DNA from: Sulfurimonas indica
Lineage (GTDB): Bacteria; Campylobacterota; Campylobacteria; Campylobacterales; Sulfurimonadaceae
Direction of reading: 5' to 3'
NCBI RefSeq assembly: GCF_009192995.1
Contig: NZ_SDID01000018.1
Location: 1-47,736, forward strand
Length of the DNA stretch: 47,736 nucleotides
Made by a program: the position numbers and the translations under genes. The notes below the pieces were generated by a model that ran no database searches, was not told the DNA's origin, and saw only the letters and a program-made list of their open reading frames with translations. Positions within the stretch are counted from its first letter, which is position 1, and every line of letters begins with the position of its first letter. Of this stretch, positions 285 through 24,453 are shown one piece after another.

Positions 285-1349
285 ATGGAAATTTTACTTG
301 AAGAGTTTTACAAAACCGACCTACAACTTGAAAAGTATCACCAAAGAAAAGTCTATATTGATGATAAATCCTACCAGATAAACGGCATCACGCAGAGCGG
401 CAAGACAAAACTGATAAAAAACTATCTGCTCTCTTTAAAAAAAAGCTCCTATCTCTACATCAACTGTGTAGATATACGCATAGAATTAGAGCCTTTTAAT
501 GCGGCACTTGCTGATTTTTGCAATGCCAACAAAATCGATGTTCTTGCATATGACAACTATCGGGAGGGTTTTATATTTCCAAATGTCACACAGTTGCTAG
601 TTGCTTCCCAAAAACACTATAACATTCCTTTTTTAAAAACACTACAACTCTATCCACTTGATTATGAGGAGTTTTTAGCCTATGAGCATAAATATGACTC
701 TTCTGCACTCAAGCACTTTGTCCAGCTTGGCGGATTTGCTGCCATGCATACTATCAGTGCTGATGAGCGCATATATTTCTTACAAAATATACTGCAAAAC
801 AGCTTGGACTCCGTTGAGTTTGACATTATGCGTCTGTGTGCAAAGTTTCTCTCACAAAAGCTCTCTGCTTTTACCATTTATGAGCGTCTCAAACAGAGTC
901 GTAAAATCTCCAAAGACAAACTCTACAAATCTTTTGAAGCCCTGCGTGAGAAAAACTATATTCATTTATTAGAAAAGTTTGCTCACGCAAAAGCCACAAA
1001 AAAAGTCTATCTCTGCGATACATCGCTTAAAGCTGCCCTCTCAGTAGAGAAAAATTTCGGTCGCCTTTTTGAAAATATGATATTTTTAGAGCTTTTTAAA
1101 GCTTCCAAAAAAGTTTATTATGAAGAGGGGGTTGATTTTTATCTGCCAGATAATGATGAGATTATCCTCTCCAAACCTTTTGCGGATGAGCGGCGTCTGT
1201 TTAAAAAACTGGAGAGTATTGAGGCCTTTATCTTTAGCTATGGTGTGCGAAAAATCACAGTTGTCACTATGAATAAAGAAGGAAACATTGCGCATCCTCT
1301 CTCTCAAGTTGATATAATACCTTTTGATATTTGGGCTTTGGGAGATTAA
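285..1349 (+). CDS. P-loop ATPase of the AAA_14/DUF4143 type
   Basis: This 354-residue protein has a Walker A-like motif GITQSGKT near residues 34-41. It also has the LYPLDYEEFL segment around residue 122 that is typical of AAA_14 ATPases. A C-terminal region beginning GRLFENMIFLEL (about residue 259) resembles the DUF4143 domain that usually follows AAA_14. The cellular role of these proteins is poorly known. The start at 285 is the first in-frame ATG; an ATG at 274 is in a different frame. The stop lies one base before the rnhB start codon, so the two genes are probably co-transcribed. The family assignment rests on motif recognition only. Confidence 0.6.
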   Translation: MEILLEEFYKTDLQLEKYHQRKVYIDDKSYQINGITQSGKTKLIKNYLLSLKKSSYLYINCVDIRIELEPFNAALADFCNANKIDVLAYDNYREGFIFPNVTQLLVASQKHYNIPFLKTLQLYPLDYEEFLAYEHKYDSSALKHFVQLGGFAAMHTISADERIYFLQNILQNSLDSVEFDIMRLCAKFLSQKLSAFTIYERLKQSRKISKDKLYKSFEALREKNYIHLLEKFAHAKATKKVYLCDTSLKAALSVEKNFGRLFENMIFLELFKASKKVYYEEGVDFYLPDNDEIILSKPFADERRLFKKLESIEAFIFSYGVRKITVVTMNKEGNIAHPLSQVDIIPFDIWALGD

Positions 1350-1350
1350 A

Positions 1351-1902
1351 ATGGACAAGCTGTGTGGCATAGATGAAGCGGGTCGTGGACCGCTTGCTGG
1401 TGATCTGGTAATGGCGGGATGTATCTTGCGTGAGACTGTGACAGGGCTCAATGATTCCAAAAAACTCACAGAGAAAAAAAGAGAAGCACTCTATAAAGAG
1501 ATAATCAAATGCTCTACTTATCATATAGTTAAATTTTCTGCCGCTGCAATTGACGCCAATGGTATATCTCACTGTCTGCGTGAGGGGCTGAGGGAGATTA
1601 TGCAAAATCTTGAAGCCCAGAGTTATCTCTTTGACGGAAACTCAAACTTTGGGGTGCAAGGTTTGGAGACTATGATAAAGGCCGATGGAAAAGTTGCAGA
1701 GGTAAGTGCTGCTTCCATTTTGGCAAAAGTAACCCATGACAGAGATATTTTAGAACTTGCAAAAGAGTATCCCGAGTATCAATTAGAAAAACATAAAGGG
1801 TATGGAACAAAACTCCATATTGAAATGATTAAAAAATATGGTTACTCACCAATTCACAGAAAATCTTACAAAGTAAAAGCACTTGAACCTACTCTTTTTT
1901 AA
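1351..1902 (+). CDS. rnhB: Ribonuclease HII
   Basis: RNase HII cleaves the RNA strand of RNA-DNA hybrids and nicks at misincorporated ribonucleotides, using metal ions held by acidic residues. The N-terminus CGIDEAGRGPLAGD carries the first catalytic Asp-Glu pair. The later KADGKVAEVSAASILAKVTHD region carries further conserved acidic and Ser/Ala positions. The ATG at 1351 was chosen because the family starts shortly before GIDEAGRG; the upstream in-frame ATG at 1324 would overlap the preceding gene. At 183 residues it is of normal length for Campylobacterota. A probable promoter for the next gene (TATAAT, 1913-1918) follows directly. Confidence 0.95.
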   Translation: MDKLCGIDEAGRGPLAGDLVMAGCILRETVTGLNDSKKLTEKKREALYKEIIKCSTYHIVKFSAAAIDANGISHCLREGLREIMQNLEAQSYLFDGNSNFGVQGLETMIKADGKVAEVSAASILAKVTHDRDILELAKEYPEYQLEKHKGYGTKLHIEMIKKYGYSPIHRKSYKVKALEPTLF

Positions 1903-1912
1903 TTTTTTACAT

Positions 1913-1918
1913 TATAAT
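1913..1918 (+). promoter_or_regulatory. -10 box for the DUF2628-like gene
   Basis: A perfect TATAAT lies 28 bp before the ATG at 1947, in the short gap after rnhB. No -35 box is evident, which is usual for sigma-70 promoters in Campylobacterota. Confidence 0.5.
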
Positions 1919-1946
1919 ATGTGAAATTTAACCTAAAAGGCTCTCA

Positions 1947-2423
1947 ATGGAAGAAAAAGATTATGAAAATGCAATGATAGAAGCATTTGTAAACAAGTCC
2001 GAAAAAACATTGTGGTATCAGAATGCTTTTTCAAAGTTCAATATCAATGGTATTGATTCAATGAAATGGGTATGGAGCTGGTGGGCCTTCTTTGGAGGTT
2101 GGGCATTTTTGCTCTACAGAAAACAGTACATTCCTGCACTTGTACTTTTCATCATCTCTCTTTTAGCTGGAATTATTCCTTTTGGTGGTCTTCTTATTGC
2201 AGTTTTAGCCGGTGGTTTTTCTACATACTTTATCTATAAAGGCTATAAACATAAAAAAGCAGAGGTTGAAGCAAATATTGATGATATTGACAAACGAATT
2301 GAGACAATGCGTGCAGTTGGTGGCTACAATCAATGGGTAGTATGGGTATATGTTATCTTTGTTGCGTTGATGTTTTTTTACATCTTTAGTATGGTTATGG
2401 CCTCAATGGCTTCCATGAACTAA
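1947..2423 (+). CDS. DUF2628-like inner-membrane protein
   Basis: This is a 158-residue membrane protein. A soluble N-terminus of about 45 residues contains the WYQNAFSKFNI segment. It is followed by a tryptophan-rich WVWSWWAFFGGWAFLLYRKQY stretch, at least two hydrophobic segments (about 45-90) and a third near the C-terminus (about 131-153). A charged linker with EANIDDIDKRIE separates the second and third. The aromatic W-W-FFGGW core followed by YRK matches the DUF2628 family, whose function is unknown. It appears to be transcribed on its own from the TATAAT box at 1913. Confidence 0.6.
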   Translation: MEEKDYENAMIEAFVNKSEKTLWYQNAFSKFNINGIDSMKWVWSWWAFFGGWAFLLYRKQYIPALVLFIISLLAGIIPFGGLLIAVLAGGFSTYFIYKGYKHKKAEVEANIDDIDKRIETMRAVGGYNQWVVWVYVIFVALMFFYIFSMVMASMASMN

Positions 2424-2495
2424 TACTTTCTCTACATATGCATTGTTGCATATGTATTGCCTCATAAATATACAATAACTTTTTACAAATAGTGC

Positions 2496-2501
2496 TATAA
2501 T
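2496..2501 (+). promoter_or_regulatory. -10 box of the polysaccharide-type operon
   Basis: TATAAT lies 28 bp upstream of the TTG start at 2530. An AGAGGAG ribosome-binding site lies at 2517-2523. This is the only obvious promoter before the four co-directional genes 2530-7027. Confidence 0.5.
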
Positions 2502-2529
2502 ATTCATAACTTTGACAGAGGAGACAGCC

Positions 2530-3885
2530 TTGAAACAGATAGCCGTCTTTAGTGATTCTTCGATTGATACTGAATATGATATTGTTACATTTAAAAGCTG
2601 GGAAGAATTTTCTAACAATAAAACTACTATTGCAGGGTTCTATATTAGTGCTTCATGTAGTGATATAGCAGATGAGTTAATAAAAGAAATTCGTTCCTCT
2701 GAATTTTGGTACTATCTTGTATATACAGAAGATCTTATACAAAACAGACTTTTTGATGGTGAAAAATCCCTCAAAGATGCGTTTAAAAGCTTTAAGTTTT
2801 CACAAGAGTTACTCTCTAAATTAAAACTTAATATAAAAGCATTAAAAAGAGAAGAAAAACTTCTTCTTTATCTTTATCTGCGGGAAGATTATGAACTGAT
2901 CCCCGAATTTCATCCAAAAACAAAAAAACTCTACAAATATCCTATTTTAGAGTTCATTTCTCAAACGTCTAATGATTCTTGGGTCTATGAGCTTACAGCA
3001 AAAAGTCTACTTACATTTTCTAAAATTGTAGACAGAGTGCGCTTATGTAACCAATGCCAAAGTGCACATCTCTATTTTATCGATTTATGTCCGCAGTGTA
3101 AGAGTATCAATATAAAAGAGTCAAAAATTCTACACTGTTTTTCATGCGGTTATGTGGATGAAGAGAAGCAATTTCAAAAAGATGCAGGTCTGGTCTGTCC
3201 AAAATGTCTCACGCAGCTTAAGCTTATAGGCGTTGACTATGACCTCCCTGCTTCTGAGTACAAATGTTATGACTGCAGCTATATATTTAAAGAGCCTTAT
3301 GTTGTTGCACGATGTATGGACTGTTCTGCTGAGAATGAACCTGACAAGTTAAATATAGAGGAGTTTCATAAACTCAAGCTTTCACTGCAGGGGCAGGAGT
3401 ATCTTCTGTTGGACCAAAAGAATGTCATCTTCTCAATGTTTGCAGAGAGTCTCAAACATATTAAGATAGATGAGTTCAAACTCTTCCTCAACTGGATGAC
3501 TTCTGTTTTTAAACGAGATAGCACTTTTCATTTTCTAGTAGTTCTTTTAGAGTTTGATAATATGCATAAATTTATCAACTACTACGGTTTTACAAAAACA
3601 AATGAGATTATGGAGGAGCTCTCACGCAGAATCTTAGAACTTCTGCGTGAGACAGACATGCTCTCAATGGATGATGAACACAGACTCTGGATACTGTTGC
3701 CGACGACATCGAAAAAAGGAATAGAAGAGAGACTTTTAAATATTCTGCATGAGCTGAAGATAGAAAACGGACCGCAACTCTCTGTAAAATTAAAAACATT
3801 CTATACCATTAAAAATCCACTCAAAGAGAAAAGTAATGCAAAAACCATAATGAATGATTTATTACAAAGTGAGGAAAATAAATAG
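2530..3885 (+). CDS. TackOD1-like zinc-ribbon protein with degenerate GGDEF domain
   Basis: This protein of about 451 residues starts at a TTG codon, chosen for the AGAGGAG site 6 bp upstream; the in-frame TTG at 2512 has no such site. Six CxxC pairs lie between residues 173 and 265 (CNQC, CPQC, CFSC, CPKC, CYDC, CMDC), so several zinc ribbons are likely. This pattern resembles the TackOD1 output domain. Residues about 310-440 look like a diguanylate cyclase fold, with FHFLVVLLEFDN and GIEERLLNILHEL, but DEHRLW stands where GGDEF should be. Cyclase activity is therefore unlikely. As the first gene of the polysaccharide-type operon it may be a regulatory or c-di-GMP-linked component. The domain names are my pattern judgement. 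Confidence 0.65.
   Translation: MKQIAVFSDSSIDTEYDIVTFKSWEEFSNNKTTIAGFYISASCSDIADELIKEIRSSEFWYYLVYTEDLIQNRLFDGEKSLKDAFKSFKFSQELLSKLKLNIKALKREEKLLLYLYLREDYELIPEFHPKTKKLYKYPILEFISQTSNDSWVYELTAKSLLTFSKIVDRVRLCNQCQSAHLYFIDLCPQCKSINIKESKILHCFSCGYVDEEKQFQKDAGLVCPKCLTQLKLIGVDYDLPASEYKCYDCSYIFKEPYVVARCMDCSAENEPDKLNIEEFHKLKLSLQGQEYLLLDQKNVIFSMFAESLKHIKIDEFKLFLNWMTSVFKRDSTFHFLVVLLEFDNMHKFINYYGFTKTNEIMEELSRRILELLRETDMLSMDDEHRLWILLPTTSKKGIEERLLNILHELKIENGPQLSVKLKTFYTIKNPLKEKSNAKTIMNDLLQSEENK
3621..3651. repeat. 11-bp inverted pair of the TGCGTGAG octamer
   Basis: CTCACGCAGAA (3621-3631) and TTCTGCGTGAG (3641-3651) are perfect reverse complements separated by 9 nt. They lie inside the coding sequence of the zinc-ribbon protein. 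The arms contain the octamer that recurs through the chromosomal half of the window. Confidence 0.75.
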
Positions 3886-3888
3886 CAA

Positions 3889-5208
3889 ATGATAAATGCA
3901 CTACTTGAAACACTTTTTGACATTTTACAGTCACACTCGACATTTGCAGATTTTTTGTTGCTCTTTACTCCTTTTATACTGCTACTGGAACTACCACTAC
4001 TCTTTATGGTTATTTTAGGCATGTTTATCTGGGCAAAAAAAGAGCAAAAAAGAGTAGCTTTTCCAAAAAATATGCCAAAAGTCACTTGTACTCTTCTATG
4101 CTATTCTGAGGGTGAAAATATCATTGAGCCTATCTACTCCTTAGCTCATCAACTCTATCCAGGTGAAATAGAGATACTTGTCGTTATTGATGGCGCACTT
4201 GCAAATAAAAAGACTCATAATGTCGCTCTTCATTTAAAAAATGAGATTAATGCCTTGCAAAACCGTGAACTTAAAGTCATTCCAAAGTATAAAAGAGGCG
4301 GACGAGTTTCATCGATGAATCTTGGTATGCAATTAGCCAGTGGGGAAATCTTTATGGCTCTTGATGGTGATACGACTTTTGATAATGACATGGTCATTAA
4401 AGCTGTACAAAACTTTGATAATCCTGATGTAGTTGCAGTAGCTGGAAACTTACGCGTTAAAAATGCAAAAGAATCTTTGGCAACACGCTTGCAAGCCATT
4501 GAATATATGCTCTCTATCACAGCAGGAAGAACAGGGCTGTCTTCTTTTAATATGGTTAACAATATCTCCGGTGCTTTTGGTATCTTTCGTATTGAAATTT
4601 TAAAACTGCTTATGGGATGGGATAGTGGTACTGCTGAAGATTTTGATATAACAATGCGACTCAAAGAGCACTTTGCTATGTATCCAAACTGGCGTATAGT
4701 TTTTGACCCGCATGTCATAGGGCATACAGAGGTCCCCAGTACGCTTCTTGGATTTTTTCAACAGAGAATTCGCTGGGAAGGAGATCTTTTTTATATACTT
4801 ATTCGAAAATATATAAACAATATCCGACCGAGTCTTCTTGGTGGGCTTAACTATCTCTTCACCCTTGTTGGTGTCTATTTCTTCCAAATCATCATGCCCT
4901 TTGTCATTACACTTTATACAATTCTGATGCTGATATTTGTACCATTTAATTATCTTCTAGGATTGAGCATTATTGTCTATGCTTTTTACTTTATGATGCT
5001 TCTGATTTTTTATATACTTTATATCTTTTTAATCAGTGAACGTCCTAAAGAGGATTTAGAGTACGTATTATATCTTCCTCTTTTTCCTATCTTTACCTAT
5101 ACAGCGAGAATAAATGCCGCACTGGCACTGCTTCACTCTATAATCAACAAATCACATCTTGATTCAAATATGGCACCATGGTGGGTACTCAAAAAAGGAA
5201 ACTACTAA
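3889..5208 (+). CDS. Membrane-bound family 2 glycosyltransferase (processive polysaccharide synthase type)
   Basis: This 439-residue inner-membrane protein probably polymerises or transfers sugar from a nucleotide donor. A membrane segment (about 22-50) precedes the GT-A domain. The catalytic motifs are visible: D101 in VVIDGAL, the DxD motif D159-x-D161 in ALDGDTT, ED at 250-251 in TAEDFD, and QQRIRW at 291-296. These correspond to the D,D,D,Q(Q/R)xRW set of cellulose-, hyaluronan- and alginate-type synthases. At least three hydrophobic segments follow (about 312-400). It starts 3 bp after the preceding gene. Its neighbours are a glycosidase-like protein and an HlyD/Alg44-like protein, which suggests export of an exopolysaccharide. 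The sugar cannot be told from the sequence. Confidence 0.85.
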   Translation: MINALLETLFDILQSHSTFADFLLLFTPFILLLELPLLFMVILGMFIWAKKEQKRVAFPKNMPKVTCTLLCYSEGENIIEPIYSLAHQLYPGEIEILVVIDGALANKKTHNVALHLKNEINALQNRELKVIPKYKRGGRVSSMNLGMQLASGEIFMALDGDTTFDNDMVIKAVQNFDNPDVVAVAGNLRVKNAKESLATRLQAIEYMLSITAGRTGLSSFNMVNNISGAFGIFRIEILKLLMGWDSGTAEDFDITMRLKEHFAMYPNWRIVFDPHVIGHTEVPSTLLGFFQQRIRWEGDLFYILIRKYINNIRPSLLGGLNYLFTLVGVYFFQIIMPFVITLYTILMLIFVPFNYLLGLSIIVYAFYFMMLLIFYILYIFLISERPKEDLEYVLYLPLFPIFTYTARINAALALLHSIINKSHLDSNMAPWWVLKKGNY

Positions 5209-5210
5209 AT

Positions 5211-6014
5211 ATGCTGCAAAAAACAATCCTTCTTTTTCTCTTTACACTTTCTCTTTGGAGTTCAGAGTTTAAGCTTGACTGGTATAGCTGGGAAGGATTT
5301 TGCAACTACAAAAAAGCGCAAACATCTTTTTTTAGCAAACTCACTCCAACAAAAAGAATCTTCCTCTCTTTTAGTGCTCAGGAGATCTTGCAACTCAAAA
5401 ATAACGCATATGAGAGAGCACTCTTAAAAGACTTTTTTCATGATGCAAAACAAAATGACATTCAAATTGAACTGCTTCTTGGTGACGAGAGCTATATCTA
5501 TCCTCAAAATCACGAAAAACTCCTTGCACTCATAGATTTTTTTCAAAACTTTCCTTTCAAAGGAGTTCAGCTTGATATTGAACCCTCAGCTCTTCCAAAA
5601 GAGCAGCATCCACTTTGGAGAGATGAGATCATAAATCTTGTTCATAAAGTCAAGCAACATACTCCTTTAGCTCTTGGTCTCTCTATAAATCATAAAATAG
5701 CGAGCCATTCTCTATTACAAGAACTCCATACCGCAGGTCTTAATGAAGCGGTCATTATGTACTACAGTATCAACCAAAAAAAGGTAGTTCAAAAGCTCAA
5801 AAATCTCTTAGAAAACAATCAAAAGCTTCACTTCTCTCTTGCACTCTCCATAGAACCTTTAAGCGTTCTCTATCAAGATGAAACGTACGCACTTTATGGG
5901 AAAAAAAAATCTTTACAAAAATGGTATACAATAGCAAATGAGCTCTCATCTTATAATAATTTTGTAGCTGTTGTGATACAATCTCTTAAAGCATTTAATA
6001 AGGCAAAAAAATGA
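5211..6014 (+). CDS. Exported glycosidase-like protein
   Basis: This protein of about 267 residues begins with the hydrophobic stretch LQKTILLFLFTLSLWSS, a likely signal peptide, so it probably acts in the periplasm or is secreted. The ATG at 5211 follows the glycosyltransferase stop by 2 bp and has AAGGAAA upstream; the in-frame ATG at 5178 would hide the signal peptide. The segment GVQLDIEPSALP resembles the catalytic strand of TIM-barrel glycoside hydrolases of the GH18 kind, where a glutamate ends a DxxDxE-like run. The polymer it may cut could be the product of the neighbouring synthase. The family is not firmly recognised. Confidence 0.5.
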   Translation: MLQKTILLFLFTLSLWSSEFKLDWYSWEGFCNYKKAQTSFFSKLTPTKRIFLSFSAQEILQLKNNAYERALLKDFFHDAKQNDIQIELLLGDESYIYPQNHEKLLALIDFFQNFPFKGVQLDIEPSALPKEQHPLWRDEIINLVHKVKQHTPLALGLSINHKIASHSLLQELHTAGLNEAVIMYYSINQKKVVQKLKNLLENNQKLHFSLALSIEPLSVLYQDETYALYGKKKSLQKWYTIANELSSYNNFVAVVIQSLKAFNKAKK

Positions 6015-8018: not shown

Positions 8019-8021
8019 CTC

Positions 8022-10236: not shown

Positions 10237-10239
10237 CCA

Positions 10240-10461
10240 TTAACCTCCGCAAACAGGTGGCAGAAGTGAGATCTTGTCTCCATCTTGCAGTACTACATCC
10301 AAAGAAGAAACCATTGTATCATTTACGGCAACTGCAGAGTTTTGCAGCCACTCAGAGAGCTCTTTATCTTTTTGTAAAATCTCTGCTAACTCATTTAAGT
10401 TTGTTATCTCAAGTTCCAGTGCATCTTTTTGTATCGGTCCTAAAAATTCTACTCTTACCAT
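10240..10461 (-). CDS. moaD: Molybdopterin synthase sulfur carrier subunit
   Basis: This 73-residue ubiquitin-like protein starts MVRVEFLGPI and ends in the Gly-Gly tail (LPPVCGG) that is thiocarboxylated to carry sulfur to MoaE. It is slightly shorter than usual but complete. It is the first gene of the leftward moaD-moaE-moeA run, with a TATAAT on the minus strand at 10490-10495. Confidence 0.92.
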   Translation of the reverse strand: MVRVEFLGPIQKDALELEITNLNELAEILQKDKELSEWLQNSAVAVNDTMVSSLDVVLQDGDKISLLPPVCGG

Positions 10462-10489
10462 CTTTACTACCTTGTAAAATATTGTTCAA

Positions 10490-10522: not shown

Positions 10523-10527
10523 TTCGC

Positions 10528-11178
10528 ATGATTTTTGGAAAAATAGAATACCTCAACCTCCTCCCATTTCATGTTTTTATGAAACGCTTTGCCAAAAACT
10601 CTCAAGCAAAAGCCATCATGAATTATAAAAAGAATGTACCTGCCAAAATCAATCAAGAATTTATCAACAATCGTGTTGATGCCGCTTTTATATCAAGTAT
10701 CGCAGCACAACAATACAAGTACATTAATCTTGGAATCATTGCAAAAAAAGAGGTACGCAGTGTTTTGGTTATTCCCTCACGCAGAGATAAAAATGATATA
10801 GAGTCCGCCTCTTCAAATATTTTGGCAAAAATACTAGCGCAAAATGGAGAGATACTCATCGGAGACAAGGCTCTGCGTTACTCTCTGAAAAACAGTGACT
10901 ATGTAGATTTGGCAGAGCTCTGGAGCAAAAAACACCAACTCCCTTTTGTTTTTGCACTTTTATGCTATCACAAAGATAAAAAAGTCTATAAAAAAATCGA
11001 GAGAGAGTTTTTAAAAAAGAAGCAAAAGATTCCTGCCTATCTTTTAGAAAAAGCAGCAAAAAAAACGGCAGTAGACTCAAAAGAGATTTTAGACTATCTT
11101 GAGCTTATTTCCTACAAACTTGATAACAAAGCAAAACTTGGACTCAAAAAGTTTTATAAAGAGGCCAAAAAGCTCTAG
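10528..11178 (+). CDS. mqnA: Chorismate dehydratase (futalosine pathway)
   Basis: MqnA dehydrates chorismate to 3-[(1-carboxyvinyl)oxy]benzoate, the first step of the futalosine route to menaquinone used by Campylobacterota. The 216-residue protein has the MqnA start FGKIEYLNLLPFHVF and the segment NNRVDAAFISSIA. It also has IGDKALRYS, matching the substrate-binding loop of the periplasmic-binding-protein-like fold. It is shorter than many homologues, mainly at the C-terminus. No ribosome-binding site precedes the ATG, in line with a leaderless message. Its stop overlaps the end of the convergent malic enzyme gene by 4 bp. Confidence 0.85.
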   Translation: MIFGKIEYLNLLPFHVFMKRFAKNSQAKAIMNYKKNVPAKINQEFINNRVDAAFISSIAAQQYKYINLGIIAKKEVRSVLVIPSRRDKNDIESASSNILAKILAQNGEILIGDKALRYSLKNSDYVDLAELWSKKHQLPFVFALLCYHKDKKVYKKIEREFLKKKQKIPAYLLEKAAKKTAVDSKEILDYLELISYKLDNKAKLGLKKFYKEAKKL

Positions 11179-12479: not shown

Positions 12480-12527
12480 AACAAATCCTTATTTTTCTAT
12501 TAAAAATTATATAACTAAAATAAACGT

Positions 12528-13787
12528 TTAGATTTTATTTAAAAATAAAACACTGTTTCCTTTGGCATTATAATAAATCCCCATAGAGTTCTTGCGTGAG
12601 ACAAAAACTCCGCGTCCGTTGAATTTTTTCGAATTTCTAAAAATCTGACTGAGTATGTGGGTATCAAACCCATCTCCCTCATCATAAATTTTTGTAACAA
12701 TATATTCACTTGCAGACTCTTTGAACCTGTAAACTTCTACAAAGATCTTTTTTGAACAATCTTTTTCTAATTCATTTAACTTTTCAAAGTAAATATCTTT
12801 TTCTAGAAAATCATGTTTTGTTTGAGAATCAATACCCAAATTTCCATGCTCATAAGCATTCATATAGAGCTCTGTAAAAACAACACCTGCCTTGTAAGCC
12901 TCTTTCATATCAACATTCAACTCTTTCCAAAGCATCTCATACCAAGCAGAAGCACTCTCTACATCTTGTAATGATGTTGCAAACTCTTTCTTGCCAATAA
13001 GAGTCTCTTCTCGCATATCAAGGCTGTTAATAAATATAAGTGTCAAATCATCCTCTTGCTCTTTTATACGAGAGTTAAACTTATCTTTAAAATCTTCTCT
13101 CGTAAAAGATGTTTTAAAGTCCTCCTCTATAAAGCTCCCGTAAGATTGTTTCCCATCTTGTGTACTGTTTTCAACAATGCCGTCACTGTAAAAAAGAAAC
13201 TTGTCAATATGTTGTACTTGATAATGATCTATTCTATACTCTCTCTGCCATTTACTCATCGGAGTATTGTTTGATTTAATTTTGATAATATTGTCTTGCT
13301 TGTCTTGAAGAAGAAAAGGAGGCATTGCAAACTTTGCATATTCTAAGAGACCAAAATAACTGTCAAAACATATATAGTCTATAGCTAAAACTTCATCATC
13401 AAGCAAAATTGGTCTGATAAACTCCATAGACTCACTAATAATGATATCTAAACTAAAACTGTCATGTTCAATCATCTTATCAATCAGATGATTGATAAAA
13501 GTCGTCATAATAACTGTTGTAAATGAAGCAGAGATCCCTTTGCCCATACCATCTACAAGAAGATAAAAGGTTCTGTGTTCATCGATTCTTCGGGCACTGT
13601 AAGCATCACCACTCAAAGTATCAAGTGGTCTGTAAAGAAAGTCTACTAAAGATGTTGTTTTTGAGTCTATCATCTGATAGTAAAAATCATTTCGAAGAAT
13701 ATTAAGTTCTTTTTCAAATGCCAGTTCTGCTTGATAGGAGGCATAAGCCTCACTCTTCTCCAAGAGTTCTAGTCTATCTTTGAACAT
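12528..13787 (-). CDS. PP2C/SpoIIE-type phosphatase fused to a GHKL (anti-sigma kinase type) domain
   Basis: This 419-residue cytoplasmic protein has two parts. Residues about 50-260 form a SpoIIE-like PP2C phosphatase, with GDAYSARR, LLVDGMGKGISAS, FYSDGIVENS and DDLTLIFI as metal-binding landmarks. Residues about 290-419 form a HATPase_c_2 domain: FTELYMNAYEHGN is the N box, YDEGDGFD the G1 box and NGRGVFVSRK the G2 region. Such fusions can both phosphorylate and dephosphorylate STAS proteins in partner-switching systems. Its start overlaps the chemoreceptor stop by 1 bp, and a STAS gene heads the same operon, so the STAS protein at 15767-16054 is the likely substrate. Confidence 0.85.
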   Translation of the reverse strand: MFKDRLELLEKSEAYASYQAELAFEKELNILRNDFYYQMIDSKTTSLVDFLYRPLDTLSGDAYSARRIDEHRTFYLLVDGMGKGISASFTTVIMTTFINHLIDKMIEHDSFSLDIIISESMEFIRPILLDDEVLAIDYICFDSYFGLLEYAKFAMPPFLLQDKQDNIIKIKSNNTPMSKWQREYRIDHYQVQHIDKFLFYSDGIVENSTQDGKQSYGSFIEEDFKTSFTREDFKDKFNSRIKEQEDDLTLIFINSLDMREETLIGKKEFATSLQDVESASAWYEMLWKELNVDMKEAYKAGVVFTELYMNAYEHGNLGIDSQTKHDFLEKDIYFEKLNELEKDCSKKIFVEVYRFKESASEYIVTKIYDEGDGFDTHILSQIFRNSKKFNGRGVFVSRKNSMGIYYNAKGNSVLFLNKI

Positions 13788-15763
13788 TAAATTTTAAACT
13801 TGCTTAGTTCTGATTGTAATTTTTTGGCATCTCGTGTCAATGAATCCACTGCATTTTCTACTGTTGTTCTGAGTTCACTATTTTTCGATGCAACGTCAAT
13901 AATCTCATCCATTGTTGTAATAAGTGTTTTTGTTTTTGTAGCAATAAGGACACTTTGATGCATTACATCTGTCGATTTATCTTTGGTATTCAAGAGATTC
14001 TCTTTAGTCTCATTTGAAGAGCTTATAAGCTCTTGCGCAGAGTCTGCTATCTCATTCATACTTTCTGATGTTTTATCTGTCTCTTCAGAGATCTCTACAA
14101 CATTTTGTGTAATAAGATTTACATTTGCACTGATTTCAGAAAGTGATTTTTGTGTACGCTCTGCTAACTTTCTTACCTCATCAGCAACCACGGCAAAACC
14201 ACGTCCATGTTCACCCGCACGTGCTGCTTCAATAGCAGCATTCAGTGCAAGAAGATTCGTCTGATCTGCAATATCAGAAATAATAGCGAGTACATCTTTG
14301 ATATTTTTTGCCTGTTCTGTTAAAGATGCTACTTTGTTGACAAGATCTTGTTGCTGTTGGCTTCCATTTTCAATCGATGTCACAACTGACTCTAGTTTTA
14401 CAATGAAAGTATCAAGCACATTAAAAGTACTATCTAAATCCTCTGTCACAACAATTGTGGACTCTTCAACAATGTCAAGTTTCTCACCAATTTCAGCAAT
14501 TAAACCATTAACCTCTTTAATTTTATTCTCTTCAATCTGACTATTTTGTCTTAAAGTATCTATAACACTATTAAGCTTATGACTCTCTCTTGTCGTAGCC
14601 GTTGCCACATCCTGTGTATTATAAACACTCTCTTTAAATGATACAATCATTTTATGAAGTGCTCGTGAGATTTGAGAAATCTCATCATCTCCTTCTACAA
14701 CCACATTACATGTCAAGTCTAAATCATTCGATACACAGCTGATCTTGCTAAGTGAGCTCTCAACACTTCTGTTTACACCACGTGCAATGATTAAGATAAT
14801 AATAAAGACCGCAATTGCAAAGATACTGTATCCTAGCAGTGCAATAAGTGTATTTGTTTTATACTCTGCTTCAATATTTGCAAGTAGTTTGTCATTCTCT
14901 TTAGCTAAGTTATCATCCACTTTTTTAAGTAAATTGATCTTTTTTGTAATTGTTTTAAACCAGACAACACCATCAACACCAAAACCACCTTCATTTGCTT
15001 TAGCAACAGCAACTTTACGCATATTGTTCACTTCTGTAACAACAGATGAATTCATAATACGTTTATACATATCGACTGAATCTTTTGGAGCGATGCTCAC
15101 AAATGCATCCATATAAGCATTCTGTTCTGCCATAAGCGTGATAAATTTCGCAAACATTCCAGAACCAAATTTGTCAGCAGAAAAAGTCGCACTCATAACA
15201 GCTCTCTCAATTCCGGCACGCTCTTTTGATTTTAAAAAGTTTGTATAGGCACTGAGTGCTTTTACAAGCTCTGGAGTATCAGCTAACTTCGCTGTAAGAG
15301 AAATCACGTGCAAAATATCTCTGTTCACTCCTGAATAGTAACCGACCTCATCTTTAACCGAGATTGTAAAATTATCAACACGGGAACGGATGTTTTCAAT
15401 TCTTCCCATCCCATTCATAACAGCTTGAATACTTTTACGTAAACTCTCCTGATAATTTGTCAAATCAAGAGAGTTCACGTACATTTGAAGTTCTTTGAAA
15501 CGACCATCTGTCAAAACTCTCTGCTTCTTTAAGATCTCACCGAATTTCTTTCCATTTGAGCCGAGAAAACCTGCACTCGCGCCCCTCTCTTTTTGTGTTT
15601 CATGTATAAGAAGAGAAAGTTTCTGTGAAAGTATATTTAACTCTTGTGCTTGTGTAATGACAGCTCTTTTTTCCAATGCTTTATTAATAGTCAACACCAT
15701 GATTACCAGTGCAAAAGAGACGACAATAGCTGTAATGAGTTTGAGTTTGTTTTTAATAGTCAT
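13787..15763 (-). CDS. Methyl-accepting chemotaxis protein with NIT-type sensor
   Basis: This 658-residue receptor has a first membrane segment near residues 10-27 and a periplasmic domain of about 275 residues. That domain starts with [20 protein letters not shown], the mark of the nitrate/nitrite-sensing NIT domain. A second membrane segment lies near 303-327, followed by a HAMP-like linker and the MCP signalling tip ([19 protein letters not shown]). It lacks a C-terminal methylesterase-docking pentapeptide. It lies between a STAS gene and a phosphatase/kinase gene with 3-bp and 1-bp spacing. It may therefore feed a partner-switching output as well as, or instead of, the flagellar motor. 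Confidence 0.9.
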
Positions 15764-15766
15764 AAT

Positions 15767-16054
15767 TTATACCTTCTTCACTTTAAAGAGTGTTACTAAA
15801 TTTAAATCGTCAAAAAGTTCAAAAAGACTACTGTCTCCGACTTTTATAGAGAGATCAACGCCTTCTTTTTGCACCAGCTTTGTCAAATAACCGATGATGG
15901 AAGAGGTAATTGAAATAGAGTTTTTAATCGTAAGAATTATACTTTCATGTGTTTTTTTCACTTCATCAAGCATATCTTTTAAGATTTGATAGTCTCTGAC
16001 TGATTTTATATTTCCGTGAATAATTATATTATTTCCTGATGATGAAATATCCAT
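15767..16054 (-). CDS. STAS-domain protein (anti-anti-sigma type)
   Basis: This is a single-domain 95-residue protein. The alternating strand-helix pattern and the segment NSISITSSIIGYLTKL fit the STAS fold. The Thr/Ser cluster there sits where SpoIIAA-like proteins carry their phosphorylated serine. It is the first gene of a tight leftward trio with the NIT-type receptor and the PP2C/GHKL protein. The likely role is a phospho-switch read by a partner elsewhere in the genome. Sequence divergence makes the assignment moderate. Confidence 0.65.
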   Translation of the reverse strand: MDISSSGNNIIIHGNIKSVRDYQILKDMLDEVKKTHESIILTIKNSISITSSIIGYLTKLVQKEGVDLSIKVGDSSLFELFDDLNLVTLFKVKKV

Positions 16055-16106
16055 TTTTACCTCTGTTTATAGAAAATTAAAGTCTCTAATCATATCTAAT
16101 TTAACC

Positions 16107-17282
16107 TTATTTAACCAAAAAAGCAAGCCAATCTTTCATCTTTTTCTCATAACCTATCTCTTTAAGATCAACAAAATGCAATGGTTTTGTTAAATAATTC
16201 TGCTTTACATAACCACCAAAATCATGCGGATATAAATATCCCTCATTTTGCTGTCTGATGTTCTTTGGAATCTTTAAAATTGCACCATCTTTAACAGCTT
16301 GAAGCGCTTTATTTATCGCTAAATATGCCGAATTAGACTTTGGCGAAGCACAAAGATAGATAACAGCCTGTGCTAAAATAATCCTTGCTTCGGGATAACC
16401 AATCTGTTTTACGCTTGTCAGTGTTGAAGTTGTAAGTGTTAAGGCTTGAGGATTGGCATTGCCCACATCTTCACTCGCAAGTATGACCAAACGGCGCGCT
16501 ATAAAATCAGCACTCTCCCCTCCATCAATCAGCCTTGCAAGATAGTAGATGGCGGCATCAGTGTCACTGCCTCGAATCGATTTGATAAGTGCTGAAGCCA
16601 AATCATAATGCACACCCGCTTCGCTGCTTCCAGCCTGCAGGGCATTGGGACGTAAAGATTTCAGTAAATCCAGTGTTACCTCTGTACTAATGGCAGTTGC
16701 AAACTCCAGAAGTTTTAACATAGCCCTTGCATCACCACCGCTTGAGGCTATTAGATACTCTTTTGCATCTTTATCAAGTGTCAATTTTTCTCGATTTATA
16801 GCTTTGTCCAGAAGTTTTTCAAGCCCTGTGTGAGATATAGGACCAAGCTCAAAAAGCATAGAGCGGGAACGAATAGCGGAAGTGAGAGAGAAAAACGGAT
16901 TCTCTGTAGAAGCACCGATAATGAGTACAGAGTTATTCTCCATTACAGGAAGCAGTACCTCTTGCTGATTTTTAGAGAGTCTATGCACTTCATCGATAAA
17001 TATCAAAGGTTTCTGCAAAGCATTGGCATACTCTTTAAATATTTTTCGCAGCTCTTCAATCTTGAGTGAAGTCGCATTCATCTCATAAAAAGGCATATCC
17101 AGTGTTGTGGCAATTATTCGTGCGAGTGAGGTTTTTCCAACTCCTGCCGGTCCATAAAAAAAGCTATGACCAAGTGCACTCTTTTCACATAGTGTTCGAA
17201 GCGGGGCACCCACTTGCGTGAGATGTTCCTGCCCTACCATATCATCAAAAGATGCAGGTCGAAGCAGATAGGTAAAATCCAA
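16107..17282 (-). CDS. rarA: Replication-associated recombination protein A
   Basis: RarA (MgsA) is a AAA+ ATPase of the clamp-loader/RuvB group that acts at stalled replication forks. The 391-residue protein has FYGPAGVGKTSLARI (Walker A), LIFIDEVHRLSKNQQE (Walker B) and GASTENPFFSLTSAIRSR (sensor 1 and arginine finger). It also has the ISSGGDARAMLKLLE sensor 2 region, and the C-terminal tetramerisation domain is present. It is followed 3 bp upstream by rluB in the same direction. Confidence 0.93.
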   Translation of the reverse strand: MDFTYLLRPASFDDMVGQEHLTQVGAPLRTLCEKSALGHSFFYGPAGVGKTSLARIIATTLDMPFYEMNATSLKIEELRKIFKEYANALQKPLIFIDEVHRLSKNQQEVLLPVMENNSVLIIGASTENPFFSLTSAIRSRSMLFELGPISHTGLEKLLDKAINREKLTLDKDAKEYLIASSGGDARAMLKLLEFATAISTEVTLDLLKSLRPNALQAGSSEAGVHYDLASALIKSIRGSDTDAAIYYLARLIDGGESADFIARRLVILASEDVGNANPQALTLTTSTLTSVKQIGYPEARIILAQAVIYLCASPKSNSAYLAINKALQAVKDGAILKIPKNIRQQNEGYLYPHDFGGYVKQNYLTKPLHFVDLKEIGYEKKMKDWLAFLVK

Positions 17283-17285
17283 GTT

Positions 17286-18086
17286 TTACTCTTTTTCTTT
17301 AGAAACTCTAGCCTTCTCTTTTGCCTTTCGTTTCTCTTCTTTTAAAAATTTATGTAGAGCTGAGTACTCACTGCGTGAGAGATAGCGGGTTTTACCTGTT
17401 GGAAGATTATTAAGCTCAATCTCTGCAAAACTCAGACGCTTTAGGTCAACAACTTCAGCTCCAAAGTGCGCAAAAAAACGACGCAGTTCTCTATTTTTCC
17501 CTTCTGAGAGTGCCACTTTCAACACTGAGTAATTTGGCTGATTTTTCTGAATTTTATACCCGATAAAAGGTTTAAATTCCATCGATTTGATCTTAGAATG
17601 TGAATGCGCACCAGCCGTTGCATCTTCCAGATAGATACCATTAAGCATCACATCTTCCATATCGGGAGTCACTTCTCCTTTGATTTTAATCTTATAGATT
17701 CTCTCTAAATCTGACTCCATCAAAGCCGTTGCCACATGAGAAGCATCTGTTAAAAGAAGCAGCCCTTCTGAAGCAAAGTCCAAACGCCCAACTGGAATAA
17801 AGTGACGAAAATCTTTATGAAGTGAATCGTAAATCGTTCTTCTTCCTTTTGGGTCTGACTTTGTAACGAGTTCCCCTTTTGGCTTGTTATAAACTATAAC
17901 TGTATATTTTTCTTGCGGACTTACCTGTTTTCCACTGATATAGACAATATCTCTACCCTCTTCTACCTGTGTGGCAGGGTTCATCTCTATCTCGCCGTTA
18001 ACACGGACATAACCATCTTGAATGGCACGGTCAGCCTCTCTGCGTGAATAGGTTGAGTAGTGTGCTATGTATTTATTTAATCTCAT
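17286..18086 (-). CDS. rluB: RluB-type 23S rRNA pseudouridine synthase
   Basis: This 266-residue enzyme has an N-terminal S4 RNA-binding domain (MRLNKYIAHYSTYSRREADRA). The RsuA/RluB catalytic domain follows, with the nucleophilic Asp in VGRLDFASEGLLLLT. The C-terminus is a lysine- and arginine-rich tail (EEKRKAKEKARVSKEKE). It isomerises a uridine in ribosomal RNA, by family most likely 23S rRNA. The exact target cannot be told apart from RsuA/RluE relatives by eye. The gene lies 4 bp from kdsD. Confidence 0.88.
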   Translation of the reverse strand: MRLNKYIAHYSTYSRREADRAIQDGYVRVNGEIEMNPATQVEEGRDIVYISGKQVSPQEKYTVIVYNKPKGELVTKSDPKGRRTIYDSLHKDFRHFIPVGRLDFASEGLLLLTDASHVATALMESDLERIYKIKIKGEVTPDMEDVMLNGIYLEDATAGAHSHSKIKSMEFKPFIGYKIQKNQPNYSVLKVALSEGKNRELRRFFAHFGAEVVDLKRLSFAEIELNNLPTGKTRYLSRSEYSALHKFLKEEKRKAKEKARVSKEKE

Positions 18087-18090
18087 TATT

Positions 18091-19053
18091 TTATGAAATT
18101 CCTTTTTCTATCAGGGTATGAATATGAAGTACCCCTTTTATCTTTTTATTTGTATCTGTTACAACCAAAAGCTGTATCTTTTTTTCTTCTATTAAAACAA
18201 GTGCATCGCTTGCAAGCATCTCCTCATCATCGATAGAGAGCGGATTTTTTGTTGCATATTTAAGAACACTATCATCAAGTGAAAAATTTTCACTGAGCAG
18301 TGCCCGACGGACATCGCCATCACTCATCAGTGCTACAAGTCGTCCCTTTTTATCAACTATAAGTGCCGTACCGAGTCGTCCTTCACTGATAGTTAAAATC
18401 GCATCTTTTACTTTTGCATCTTCACCGATAAGCGGAAGATTCTCTGTTCGCATCAGGTTCTTTACTTTTACAAAAAGTTTTTTACCCAAAGCACCTCCAG
18501 GATGAAAAGAGGCAAAATCAGACTTTTGAAAATCACGTGCCTTCATCAAACAAACTGCAAGTGCATCACCAAGAGCAAGTGTCAGTGTCGTTGAGCTTGT
18601 CGGTGCAATATTAAGCGGACAGGCCTCACGCTCAACCGAAACCTTTATGACTAAGTCACTATATGTTCCAAGTGTTGAGTTCTCATTACGAGTCATCCCG
18701 ATAAGTGGTACATCAAAACGTTTGATATGAGGAAGTATGGAACTGAGCTCTTCACTCTCTCCCGAGTAGCTAATCGCCAGTACTACATCATCACTTCCAA
18801 TCATCCCCAAGTCACCATGAAGTGCTTCAGTTGGATGCAGAAAAAAACTCGGTGTTCCAGTTGAAGCAAAAGTAGCAGCCATCTTCGCACCGATGAGCCC
18901 GCTTTTACCGACACCACTTACTACAAGTTTACCTTTGCAGTTTAAAATCATCTCTACTGCTTTATCAAATTCATTACCGATTTTTTTCGAAGCTTCTTGA
19001 AGTGTTGAGGCTTCAATATCAAGTGTCTCTTGTGCAATTGTTTTATAATTCAT
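18091..19053 (-). CDS. kdsD: Arabinose-5-phosphate isomerase (KpsF/GutQ/KdsD family)
   Basis: The enzyme converts ribulose-5-phosphate to arabinose-5-phosphate, the first step to KDO for lipopolysaccharide. The 320-residue protein has a SIS sugar-isomerase domain: VVSGVGKSGLIGAKMAATFASTG, FFLHPTEALHGDLGMI and SYSGESEEL. Two CBS domains follow (about 200-320). This is the full-length architecture. Its TATAAT (minus strand, 19060-19065) lies 6 bp from the ATG, so this message may also be leaderless. Confidence 0.92.
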   Translation of the reverse strand: MNYKTIAQETLDIEASTLQEASKKIGNEFDKAVEMILNCKGKLVVSGVGKSGLIGAKMAATFASTGTPSFFLHPTEALHGDLGMIGSDDVVLAISYSGESEELSSILPHIKRFDVPLIGMTRNENSTLGTYSDLVIKVSVEREACPLNIAPTSSTTLTLALGDALAVCLMKARDFQKSDFASFHPGGALGKKLFVKVKNLMRTENLPLIGEDAKVKDAILTISEGRLGTALIVDKKGRLVALMSDGDVRRALLSENFSLDDSVLKYATKNPLSIDDEEMLASDALVLIEEKKIQLLVVTDTNKKIKGVLHIHTLIEKGIS

Positions 19054-19059
19054 AGGCGT

Positions 19060-19092
19060 ATTATACCTTTTTTACCATCAAGAAGATATAAT
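19060..19092. promoter_or_regulatory. Divergent promoters between kdsD and the ATPase gene
   Basis: ATTATA at 19060-19065 is TATAAT on the minus strand, 6 bp before the kdsD start. TATAAT at 19087-19092 faces right and lies 27 bp before the ATG at 19120, which has an AAGGAAG ribosome-binding site. Confidence 0.5.
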
Positions 19093-19119
19093 AAACAAAA
19101 ACGATTTAAGGAAGTGGCT

Positions 19120-19854
19120 ATGAGAGATACTATTGGAAAATACCTTGATACGATTGATGAGTTAAAACTTGAAGAGAGAATGCTTTGTCACAACACACTT
19201 ATCTTGGGTGAGCAAGGTTCAGGGAAAACAAATCTTGCATGTAAGATACGAAACTACGTTATTGACAATGAAGTTCCAACACTTTACATGGACTTTGCAA
19301 ATTCTCATGAAGATGAGGTTGAACTTCGCTATAAAGATGAACACTTTAACTATATTCGCTTTGAAGAGAGTGAAGCTTTTGATAAAGAGTTCTGTAGACT
19401 TGTTGCAGAAAAAAAACATATCTATATGGCAGTTGATCCAAAATATTTTGCAAAAAAGAGAGACGAAAGAAGTAAACTTTCAAAAATAATCTCAAAGCAA
19501 GAACTACTTGATGATTATTACTATTTTTTCCATGATATTGAAAATCTCAATGGTTTTTATACACAGTTTGAAGATTTTCTTCTCTATATGCTCTCTTTTG
19601 CCAACCTGCAAAAGTACGGTTTTACATTTTTGGCACAGCCACATGAGACATTTGAGAATCCACACCTTAAACTACTCTTCTCATTCCTCTTTCTTGGAAA
19701 GTGTTCTAATGCCAACTACTACAACACGGCAATTTTAAAAACACTCAAGAAAAACAAGTTCCTCTACCAGTACAGAACAGCTTACCCAACACTACTCTTT
19801 AATGAGATAGTAAGCTCCATGGTAAAAATAGACGAGTACGTACCAGAGCTTTAA
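19120..19854 (+). CDS. P-loop ATP-binding protein of unknown role
   Basis: This protein of about 244 residues has the Walker A motif LILGEQGSGKTNLAC near residues 28-42. A hydrophobic strand ending in Asp (HIYMAVDP) may serve as Walker B. The overall look is that of a small HerA/FtsK- or DUF87-like ATPase, but the family is not firmly recognised. The ATG at 19120 was chosen for the AAGGAAG site just upstream; the in-frame ATG at 19030 would overlap the kdsD start and its promoter. It ends 1 bp before the nnrD/nnrE gene, so the two are probably co-transcribed. Confidence 0.65.
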   Translation: MRDTIGKYLDTIDELKLEERMLCHNTLILGEQGSGKTNLACKIRNYVIDNEVPTLYMDFANSHEDEVELRYKDEHFNYIRFEESEAFDKEFCRLVAEKKHIYMAVDPKYFAKKRDERSKLSKIISKQELLDDYYYFFHDIENLNGFYTQFEDFLLYMLSFANLQKYGFTFLAQPHETFENPHLKLLFSFLFLGKCSNANYYNTAILKTLKKNKFLYQYRTAYPTLLFNEIVSSMVKIDEYVPEL

Positions 19855-19855
19855 A

Positions 19856-21226
19856 ATGCAAAATCTTTTTGAGGAGGTTGGCTCACTTGATGTGAGATGC
19901 TATGAGGAGTTTGGGCTTACTGAAGATATCTTGATGGAACATGCTGCTGATGGAATGGCAGCATACATTCGAGCTAACTTCCCAACAAACTCCAAAATCA
20001 TTATTGTCGTTGGTAGTGGGAATAACGGAGCAGATGGTATTGCCCTCTCAAGACTACTACATGGTGACTATCAAGTAAGCCTGCTTCATGCAAAAGAGCC
20101 AAAATCTCCAATGGCACAACTACAAAAAAAACGTGCCGATGCTATTAATATTCCAACAACAAAAGAACTTTTTGAGTGCGATGTAATAGTTGACGCTATC
20201 GTAGGCACTGGATTTAGTGGGAACTTCAATGAAGAGCTCACGCAGCTCATCGCGAAAATAAACACTACAAAAGCTTTTAAAATTGCCTGCGATATGCCAA
20301 GCAGTGGCTTTTTTGCAGATATTACATTGACAATGGGGGCACTTAAAAAAGCACTCTTTTTAGATGCGAACAAAGATGCAGTTGGAAAAATTCAAGTAAT
20401 TGATTTAGGCATCTCACGCAAGGTTTATGAAAAAGAATCTAACTGGCAACTTCTTGATATAGAAGATCTTAAACTCCCTCACCGCCTGCGTGAGGATAGC
20501 CATAAAGGCAGTTACGGACATCTTGCAGTTATTAGCGGTGAAAAAATCGGAGCGAGTCTGCTTTGCGCAGAAGCTGCACTACGTTTTGGGTCTGGGCTTG
20601 TTACACTTGTAGGCTTTGAAAAAGAGCATTTTTTACACATTCCTCACGCATTGATGTATTCACATACGCTTCCAAAAAATACAAGCGCCCTTGCACTGGG
20701 TATGGGTTTTGGTGCTGAGTTTAGCACGAATGAACTTCTAAACTTTTTAGATAACGGTCTCCCTTTGGTAGTAGATGCCGACCTTTTTCATATGGAAATT
20801 ATCAAAGATATTCTCAAACGAAAAAACATCGTCCTCACACCACATCCACGAGAGTTTGTTGCACTCTTAAAGCTCACGCATTTGGCAGATATAACAGTAG
20901 ATACACTACAAAAGAAACGTTTTTACTATGTGGAACTCTTTTGCGAACATTATCCTCACGCAACACTGCTTTTAAAAGGGGCTAATGTTATCATTGGCCA
21001 AGATGAGCAATTTTTCGTCAATCCTCACGGAAGTGCAAAACTTGCAAAAGGTGGCAGTGGAGATGTACTCTCCGGACTTATTGCAGGACTTTTGGCACAA
21101 GGATACAAACCACTAGAAGCCACCATACATGCTTCACTGGCACATACAAAACTGGCAAGTAATTACAATGGTGCTGATTTTTCTCTTACGCCAGATGATT
21201 TAATAGCAGGTATTGGTAATCTATAA
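19856..21226 (+). CDS. nnrD: Bifunctional NAD(P)H-hydrate epimerase / ADP-dependent dehydratase
   Basis: This 456-residue protein repairs damaged NADH and NADPH hydrates. The N-terminal half is the NnrE epimerase (YjeF_N), with HAADGMAAYI, VVGSGNNGADGIALSR and VDAIVGTGFSG. The C-terminal half, from about residue 215, is the NnrD dehydratase of the ribokinase fold. It has GSYGHLAVISG, LTPHPREFV, LLLKGANVII and the LAKGGSGDVLSGLIAG nucleotide loop. The single-chain fusion is the usual bacterial form. Seven copies of the octamer CTCACGCA/TGCGTGAG are scattered in this gene, counting both orientations within 20237-20962. Confidence 0.92.
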   Translation: MQNLFEEVGSLDVRCYEEFGLTEDILMEHAADGMAAYIRANFPTNSKIIIVVGSGNNGADGIALSRLLHGDYQVSLLHAKEPKSPMAQLQKKRADAINIPTTKELFECDVIVDAIVGTGFSGNFNEELTQLIAKINTTKAFKIACDMPSSGFFADITLTMGALKKALFLDANKDAVGKIQVIDLGISRKVYEKESNWQLLDIEDLKLPHRLREDSHKGSYGHLAVISGEKIGASLLCAEAALRFGSGLVTLVGFEKEHFLHIPHALMYSHTLPKNTSALALGMGFGAEFSTNELLNFLDNGLPLVVDADLFHMEIIKDILKRKNIVLTPHPREFVALLKLTHLADITVDTLQKKRFYYVELFCEHYPHATLLLKGANVIIGQDEQFFVNPHGSAKLAKGGSGDVLSGLIAGLLAQGYKPLEATIHASLAHTKLASNYNGADFSLTPDDLIAGIGNL

Positions 21227-24390: not shown

Positions 24391-24453
24391 TTAGCCTAAA
24401 TTAGGCACTTTCAAAGCTTTTAAACTTTATTAAAATCTCGCTTTAAAAAAACC

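Follow-up and report, generated by a model that had tools for sequence, protein, structure and literature searches.

The first 47,736 nucleotides of contig NZ_SDID01000018.1 of Sulfurimonas indica, analyzed here in full and referred to as the window, raise the question of why the octamer CTCACGCA recurs in one half of this DNA and is lacking from a genomic island in the other. A preliminary description of the window had interpreted the octamer as an uptake or recombination signal of the lineage that a recently acquired island had not gained. Our results support that interpretation, in that the word is abundant in 7 of 120 genus genomes, is enriched at the level of DNA, and is absent from an island with defined boundaries. 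From this genomic pattern, we infer that CTCACGCA, mostly followed by G or A, is probably a DNA uptake sequence, serving as a putative self-recognition tag of one Sulfurimonas clade.

Enrichment and shape of the octamer

The preliminary description had counted 17 copies of CTCACGCA/TGCGTGAG in the first ~24 kb of the window and had estimated that fewer than one would occur by chance. We recovered all 17 at the same positions (9 on the forward strand and 8 on the reverse strand; Table 1), and dinucleotide shuffles of the window gave a mean of 0.41 and a maximum of 3 copies, with 0 of 100 shuffles reaching 17. Copies 6 and 7 form the inverted pair that had been noted previously. Because this pair lies inside an open reading frame (ORF), a terminator role looks unlikely.

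Across the genome to which the window belongs (2,093,483 bases in 52 contigs), we counted 757 copies of CTCACGCA (388 on one strand and 369 on the other), compared with 23 copies (17 and 6) of the same word read backwards. In a 431-kb sample of this genome, CTCACGCA was the most over-represented octamer, with 150 copies versus 8.3 expected from a second-order Markov model, and the octamers ranked 2 to 4 were overlapping or variant forms of it. Both comparisons place the word far above expectation.

The octamer is non-palindromic and has a defined shape. Among 149 copies, the preceding base was A in just 6%, and the following base was G in 53% and A in 31%. Single-letter changes at positions 1-6 occurred at 0.3 to 2.1 times their expected counts, and some variants at positions 7-8 kept a larger excess (CTCACGCG, 5.2-fold; CTCACGTA, 3.4-fold; and CTCACGGA, 2.4-fold), indicating that CTCACG is the firm part of the word and the final two letters its softer end. 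CTCACGTG was likewise enriched in the sample of this genome (67 versus 7.6 expected). The A+T content of the 40 bases on either side of 148 copies was near the background of 0.64 and dipped beside the word, with no AT-rich flank. Separately, we observed the palindrome CTCACGTGAG, which consists of two overlapping CTCACG halves, 24 times over both strands (12 places) versus 0.55.

In a 428-kb sample in which ORFs were called by a simple longest-ORF rule, 148 of 150 copies were within ORFs of at least 80 codons, and 2 were outside, compared with 9.0 expected by length. An antisense frame reading mainly LRE, MRE, or VRE accounted for 75 of the 148 coding copies. We then compared the counts with synonymous-codon shuffles that preserved every protein and its codon usage (ORFs of at least 120 codons; 60 shuffles), which yielded 11.1 copies (standard deviation, 3.3; maximum, 19) against 146 observed. 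Copies in the LRE frame exceeded expectation 9.9-fold, those in the three sense frames 12-, 21-, and 48-fold, and those in the fifth frame 60-fold (3 versus 0.05); the sixth frame is without copies because the word would place a stop codon in the gene. Thus, all five frames holding the word were enriched over the shuffles, upholding the earlier view that protein coding does not explain the copies and arguing against codon-pair use in a single frame.

Copies of CTCACGCA showed no strand polarity, a property that the preliminary description had singled out for telling kinds of signal apart. Along the local GC skew, 74 copies had the same and 76 the opposite orientation. Relative to genes, 70 copies were on the gene strand and 78 on the opposite strand, and one 180-kb stretch had 36 of its 72 copies on the forward strand.

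Distribution of the octamer and of related words in the genus

We surveyed 120 genus genomes including that of the window, drawn evenly from a larger group and consisting mostly of draft assemblies; the genus was identified as Sulfurimonas through named relatives. The nearest named relatives of the rarA-like protein encoded in the window were from Sulfurimonas metagenome assemblies (one of them labelled just Epsilonproteobacteria bacterium) with 91% to 83% identity (L001-L005), followed by further Sulfurimonas, Sulfuricurvum, and Sulfurovum. In L001-L005, CTCACGCA occurred 36 times versus 2.4 expected from codon shuffles. Genome-wide counts were compared with those of reversed words, a control that is crude where a word has coding bias, as with TTGATGCAG below. 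Seven of the 120 genomes (G000, G007, G013, G020, G022, G027, and G134) contained 621-962 copies of CTCACGCA, and the remaining 113 contained at most 99 (the highest being G076, with 99 against a control of 8). Outside the genus but within the order, CTCACGCA stood out in none of 23 genomes; the top count was 132 in G046, against a control of 63.

The competence gene comEC was found in 110 of the 120 genus genomes and in 71 of the 72 of good quality. On a comEC tree of 49 genomes, which represents a single marker gene and on which motif classes were assigned from whole-genome counts, the CTCACGCA group (six genomes with a long enough comEC) required 2 changes, compared with a shuffled mean of 5.8 and 0 of 500 shuffles as low; G022 was on a long branch. 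We also aligned the window genome to its relatives at 65-82% local identity, using G+C-matched control words containing CG. Relatives with the same motif retained CTCACGCA in 24 of 50 aligned cells, representing 12 of 17 positions, compared with 340 of 3430 (9.9%) for the control words. Other relatives retained it in 2 of 154 cells, representing 2 of 53 positions, compared with 1613 of 26029 (6.2%) for the controls. These counts were unchanged once double counts were removed, and when the count was widened, the figures were 34 of 64 (control, 17%) for same-motif relatives and 2 of 218 (control, 8%) for others.

Ranking of octamers in samples of ~10-80 kb from other genus members revealed different top words, and five words were then counted genome-wide. 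AAACGCAG reached at least 500 copies in 11 of the 120 genomes, including G123 with 2331 (1187 and 1144 on the two strands; control, 83), or one per 1.1 kb of 2.6 Mb, and G016 with 1822 (control, 116); the window genome contained 45 (control, 25). AAACGCCA occurred 693 times in G074 (control, 13) and 636 times in G009 (control, 24), and several genomes were intermediate for both AAACGCAG and AAACGCCA. TTGATGCAG was weaker, with 310 copies in G001 and 336 in G018 compared with 21-106 in the other 118 genomes, the word being common across the genus. Codon shuffles supported excesses of AAACGCAG in G123 (20 versus 1.6), G139 (15 versus 1.1), and G016 (17 versus 1.4) and of AAACGCCA in G074 (10 versus 0.45) and G009 (26 versus 3.1). 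In 20-kb samples of G134, G007, and the AAACGCAG genomes, strands were mixed, a single sample from G134 being skewed 2 to 8. No genome ranked among the richest in more than one of CTCACGCA (at least 600 copies), AAACGCAG (at least 500), and TACATGTAG (at least 400).

The words of the sister lineages are related. ACGCAG is common to CTCACGCAG and AAACGCAG, AAACGC is common to AAACGCAG and AAACGCCA, and ACGC is common to CTCACGCA, AAACGCAG, and AAACGCCA, with A-Y-G-C as a looser common core. On the comEC tree, the AAACGCAG group was found in two deep clades and required 5 changes, as few as in 6 of 500 shuffles (mean, 7.6), and all motif groups together required 17 changes compared with a shuffled mean of 26.4. 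As judged from these sequences, the words appear to follow phylogeny well for CTCACGCA and fairly for AAACGCAG. In strong or intermediate AAACGCAG-type genomes, AAACGCA occupied the aligned CTCACGCA site in 6 of 68 cells, compared with 0 of 145 in the remaining non-CTCACGCA genomes; at L221:9371, inside comEC, the window genome has CTCACGCA and five AAACGCAG-type genomes have AAACGCA. These cases hint that one tag may have been rewritten into another.

Other words were considered and kept apart. As a candidate dialect, AGATGCTA in G091 was set aside at ~4-fold over codon shuffles (27 versus 6.2), and AAATGCAG in G003 was weak, with 10 copies in 20 kb. The palindromic word CTACATGTAG was strongly enriched in G006, G032, G078, G084, G115, and others, with TACATGTAG reaching at most 769 copies over both strands versus a control of 34; its membership among the uptake-like words is uncertain. 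One-strand polarity of TACATGTAG was rejected, as the strands were near equal in most samples of six genomes because the full word CTACATGTAG is a palindrome. In G134, a nearly closed genome of the CTCACGCA type, AAACGCAG occurred 111 times forward and 30 times in reverse, perhaps as a repeat array. In 20 Sulfuricurvum loci (L018, L023, L025, L026, L028, L030-L036, L038-L042, L062, L070, and L072), we observed GAAGCGGT 91 times versus 18 in codon shuffles, with a strong bias for the gene strand (78 sense and 13 antisense) that is unlike the Sulfurimonas words. This word may be Chi-like or of another kind, and it has AAGCGGT in common with the Apl-type uptake signal sequence (PMC12616744).

The genomic island and other stretches without the octamer

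The preliminary description had reported that the island lacks the octamer, and we found 0 copies in its 23,150 bases, which are bounded by 57-nucleotide repeats and carry an integrase (Table 1), whereas the rate across the genome predicts 8.4 (P = 2.3e-4). The G+C content of the island is 0.297 versus 0.375, and low G+C by itself would also reduce chance copies of CTCACGCA. For the partial word CTCACG, we counted 24 occurrences across the native 24.3 kb and none inside the island. The final 3.4 kb of native DNA ahead of the island is likewise without CTCACGCA. Defence cargo of the island includes a type I restriction-modification system (hsdM, hsdS, and hsdR), a PtuA/PDC-M01A-like ATPase, a Fic-like protein, and a McrBC-type gene, and a ParA-like ATPase is also encoded between its outer limits (24335-47598).

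The four longest CTCACGCA-free stretches in the 428-kb sample were the end of the window, two entire 20-kb samples, and 17 kb at the start of a contig. The second stretch contains a polysaccharide-type cluster, in which 7 of 10 tested proteins matched families, all of sugar or polysaccharide type. In the third, helicases and a YopX-type protein are encoded alongside unknown genes, and 5 of 8 proteins tested there matched no family; the fourth starts with conjugation-type genes over ~5.6 kb (10 proteins tested).

Table 1. Copies of the octamer and landmarks of the genomic island in the window
Feature	Position	Strand	Evidence
Copy 1 of CTCACGCA	943..950	-	sequence match
Copy 2 of CTCACGCA	982..989	+	sequence match
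Copy 3 of CTCACGCA	1427..1434	-	sequence match
Copy 4 of CTCACGCA	1577..1584	-	sequence match
Copy 5 of CTCACGCA	3208..3215	+	sequence match
Copy 6 of CTCACGCA, inverted-pair arm 1, within ORF 2512-3885	3621..3628	+	
Copy 7 of CTCACGCA, inverted-pair arm 2	3644..3651	-	
Copy 8 of CTCACGCA	10776..10783	+	sequence match
Copy 9 of CTCACGCA	12593..12600	-	sequence match
Copy 10 of CTCACGCA, within rarA-like gene 16107-17282	17215..17222	-	
Copy 11 of CTCACGCA	17372..17379	-	sequence match
Copy 12 of CTCACGCA, within ORF 19856-21226 (NAD(P)H-hydrate dehydratase/epimerase-like)	20237..20244	+	
Copy 13 of CTCACGCA, within ORF 19856-21226	20413..20420	+	
Copy 14 of CTCACGCA, within ORF 19856-21226	20487..20494	-	
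Copy 15 of CTCACGCA, within ORF 19856-21226	20643..20650	+	
Copy 16 of CTCACGCA, within ORF 19856-21226	20873..20880	+	
Copy 17 of CTCACGCA, within ORF 19856-21226; final one ahead of island	20955..20962	+	
tRNA-Leu (anticodon tag), island attachment gene	24306..24390	+	
att direct repeat, left, 57 nt, 3' part of tRNA-Leu	24335..24391	+	
Motif-free genomic island, GC 0.297	24392..47541	.	
Phage-type integrase of island	46216..47376	-	PF00589 E 8.5e-24
att direct repeat, right, 96% to left copy	47542..47598	+	

A putative uptake sequence and its alternatives

A word that is lineage-specific, non-polar, enriched at the level of DNA, conserved within its clade but not beyond it, absent from recent foreign DNA, and accompanied by related words in sister lineages matches the uptake sequences of two known families (PMC12616744, PMC3630211). 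To date, uptake sequences with dialects are described only from Neisseriaceae and Pasteurellaceae (PMC12616744). Like CTCACGCA, the DNA uptake sequences (DUS) of Neisseriaceae occur in hundreds to thousands of copies on both strands with one main word per lineage, have related words with a kept core in sister lineages, and are absent from recently acquired DNA (PMC3630211, PMC2397512). They differ in having a CTG core and 10-12 letters (PMC3630211), whereas the words described here have ACGC and 8-9 letters and belong to another phylum. The uptake signal sequences (USS) of Pasteurellaceae are similar in their ~9 letters, lineage-specific types, and high copy number (PMC12616744). Unlike CTCACGCAG, which has it on neither strand, they contain a GCGG core, and their AT-rich downstream tracts have no counterpart within 40 bases of 148 CTCACGCA copies.

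In such a system, ComEC would bring one strand of tagged DNA into the cell, and recombination of tagged fragments would spread and maintain the tags. Mobile DNA entering by conjugation or through an integrase would carry no tags, and shifts in receptor specificity could give rise to dialects. Our searches of open-licence papers yielded no description of an uptake sequence for Sulfurimonas or Campylobacterota. Together, these comparisons incline us to the view that Campylobacterota have a third, independently evolved uptake-sequence system and that Sulfurimonas is split into sexual dialects (CTCACGCAG, AAACGCAG, AAACGCCA, and perhaps TTGATGCAG) around an A-Y-G-C core, each of which would mark core genomes and not mobile DNA.

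We also searched the window genome for components of an uptake machinery. Nine matches to the pilin N-methylation signal were found, of which three are beside priA at a distance of ~7 kb to comEC, four belong to a type II secretion-like cluster, and two are elsewhere; the gene names of both clusters were read from translations. Inspection of these translations by eye also revealed a dnaB with an apparent intein beside comEC (L221:5758-8235) and a 2327-residue, repeat-rich putative lipoprotein next to the type II secretion-like cluster, of which it may be the substrate (L222:12172-19155).

Several observations weigh against an uptake role. In two of the seven CTCACGCA genomes, the comEC match crosses one in-frame TGA (G013:C74, a draft, and G134:C1, nearly closed), which may reflect recent loss or sequence error. 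We found no receptor among the pseudopilins beside priA and comEC, a result obtained with no homology search for ComP. The priA-linked pseudopilin class (20 genomes) did not sort cleanly by motif: its tree separated G022 from the remaining four CTCACGCA genomes and scattered the AAACGCAG genomes over several places, and the 8 changes for all groups, compared with a shuffled mean of 11.7, form a figure that relatedness alone can give. On the same tree, G119 and G016, AAACGCAG genomes from different comEC clades, joined with a support of 99. In the comEC tree, the TACATGTAG class (138 of 500 shuffles as low) and the intermediate AAACGCAG class (172 of 500) were unclustered, and the AAACGCA cases come from 2 positions only, one of them within comEC. 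Samples of 20-44 kb from comEC-bearing genus genomes such as G012, G031, and G085 had no strong word, and thus comEC is no predictor of a tag. The fourth CTCACGCA-free stretch ends with ~5 kb of ordinary genes, indicating that gaps of several kilobases without the word occur in native DNA as well. Spacing of CTCACGCA was no more even than random (coefficient of variation, 0.92; null, 0.82-1.21; 99 gaps), and only 8 pairs of neighbouring copies were 100 bases apart or less, in mixed orientation. Neisserial DUS are often intergenic and paired as terminators, whereas CTCACGCA is almost wholly in genes (2 of 150 outside) with no sign of terminator pairs. In Campylobacter jejuni, of the same phylum, uptake is limited to DNA methylated at RAATTY and is linked to CtsM; the signal there is a methylated six-base word, whereas here the longer word itself is enriched and varies between lineages (PMC10046745). 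Finally, searches of open-licence papers turned up no experiment on uptake or transformation in these bacteria.

The alternative that survives best, although we consider it unlikely, is that CTCACGCA is a Chi-like hotspot telling an AddAB-type helicase-nuclease to stop degrading DNA and to load RecA. Chi sites are also over-represented octamers tied to recombination, and their words vary between species (PMC3630211). Consistent with such a role, CTCACGCA is a non-palindromic octamer that is found chromosome-wide and is absent from foreign DNA. In addition, a PDDEXK_1 nuclease domain (PF12705) was present in an AddB-sized frame (644-793 codons) in 12 of 12 genomes tested, with a weaker second match nearby in an AddA-sized frame (904-938 codons) in 5 of the 12. 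The AddAB names follow from domain and frame size, and TIGR02773, a Gram-positive AddB model, matched in 0 of the 12 genomes. Against a Chi role, CTCACGCA lacks polarity along both GC skew and genes, an absence that alone is not decisive, and word density reaches one per 1.1 kb in G123. Furthermore, the AddB-sized frame is shared by genomes of the CTCACGCA, AAACGCAG, and TACATGTAG types and by genomes lacking any known word, so that the enzyme would need several target changes within one genus. The lack of polarity, along with the related words in sister lineages despite an AddB-sized nuclease in every genome tested, leads us to favor an uptake sequence over Chi.

Slightly less probable than a Chi-like hotspot is a methylation-coupled signal, in which an orphan methyltransferase would act on CTCACGCA, and the mark rather than the unmodified word would be read at uptake or in self/non-self defence. 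Non-palindromic words of this length suit several types of methyltransferase. Restriction-modification usually brings avoidance of sites and not enrichment, and the tolerated variants at positions 7-8 make CTCACGCA softer than a typical methyltransferase site. The C. jejuni CtsM/RAATTY system provides a precedent for this possibility within the phylum (PMC10046745).

A chromosome-architecture site resembling FtsK orienting polar sequences (KOPS) or SlmA, Noc, or HIP1 sites would fit the high copy number, over-representation, and spread across sampled contigs, but is very improbable: KOPS require strong polarity towards the terminus, HIP1 and SlmA sites are palindromic, and CTCACGCA is neither polar along the local GC skew nor palindromic. 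A by-product of codon-pair or peptide (LRE) use, suggested by the LRE-type frame of about half of the coding copies, can be dismissed, as it is rejected by the synonymous-codon shuffles and by the greater enrichment of the other frames (12- to 60-fold) than of the LRE frame.

If CTCACGCA and its sister words are indeed uptake sequences, they would represent a third origin of such tags, in another phylum, with several dialects within one environmental genus and with more than 100 genomes available for comparative tests of how tags originate, spread, and switch. They would also help towards finding the receptor, provide a tool for transforming Sulfurimonas, and serve as a simple marker for recently acquired DNA.

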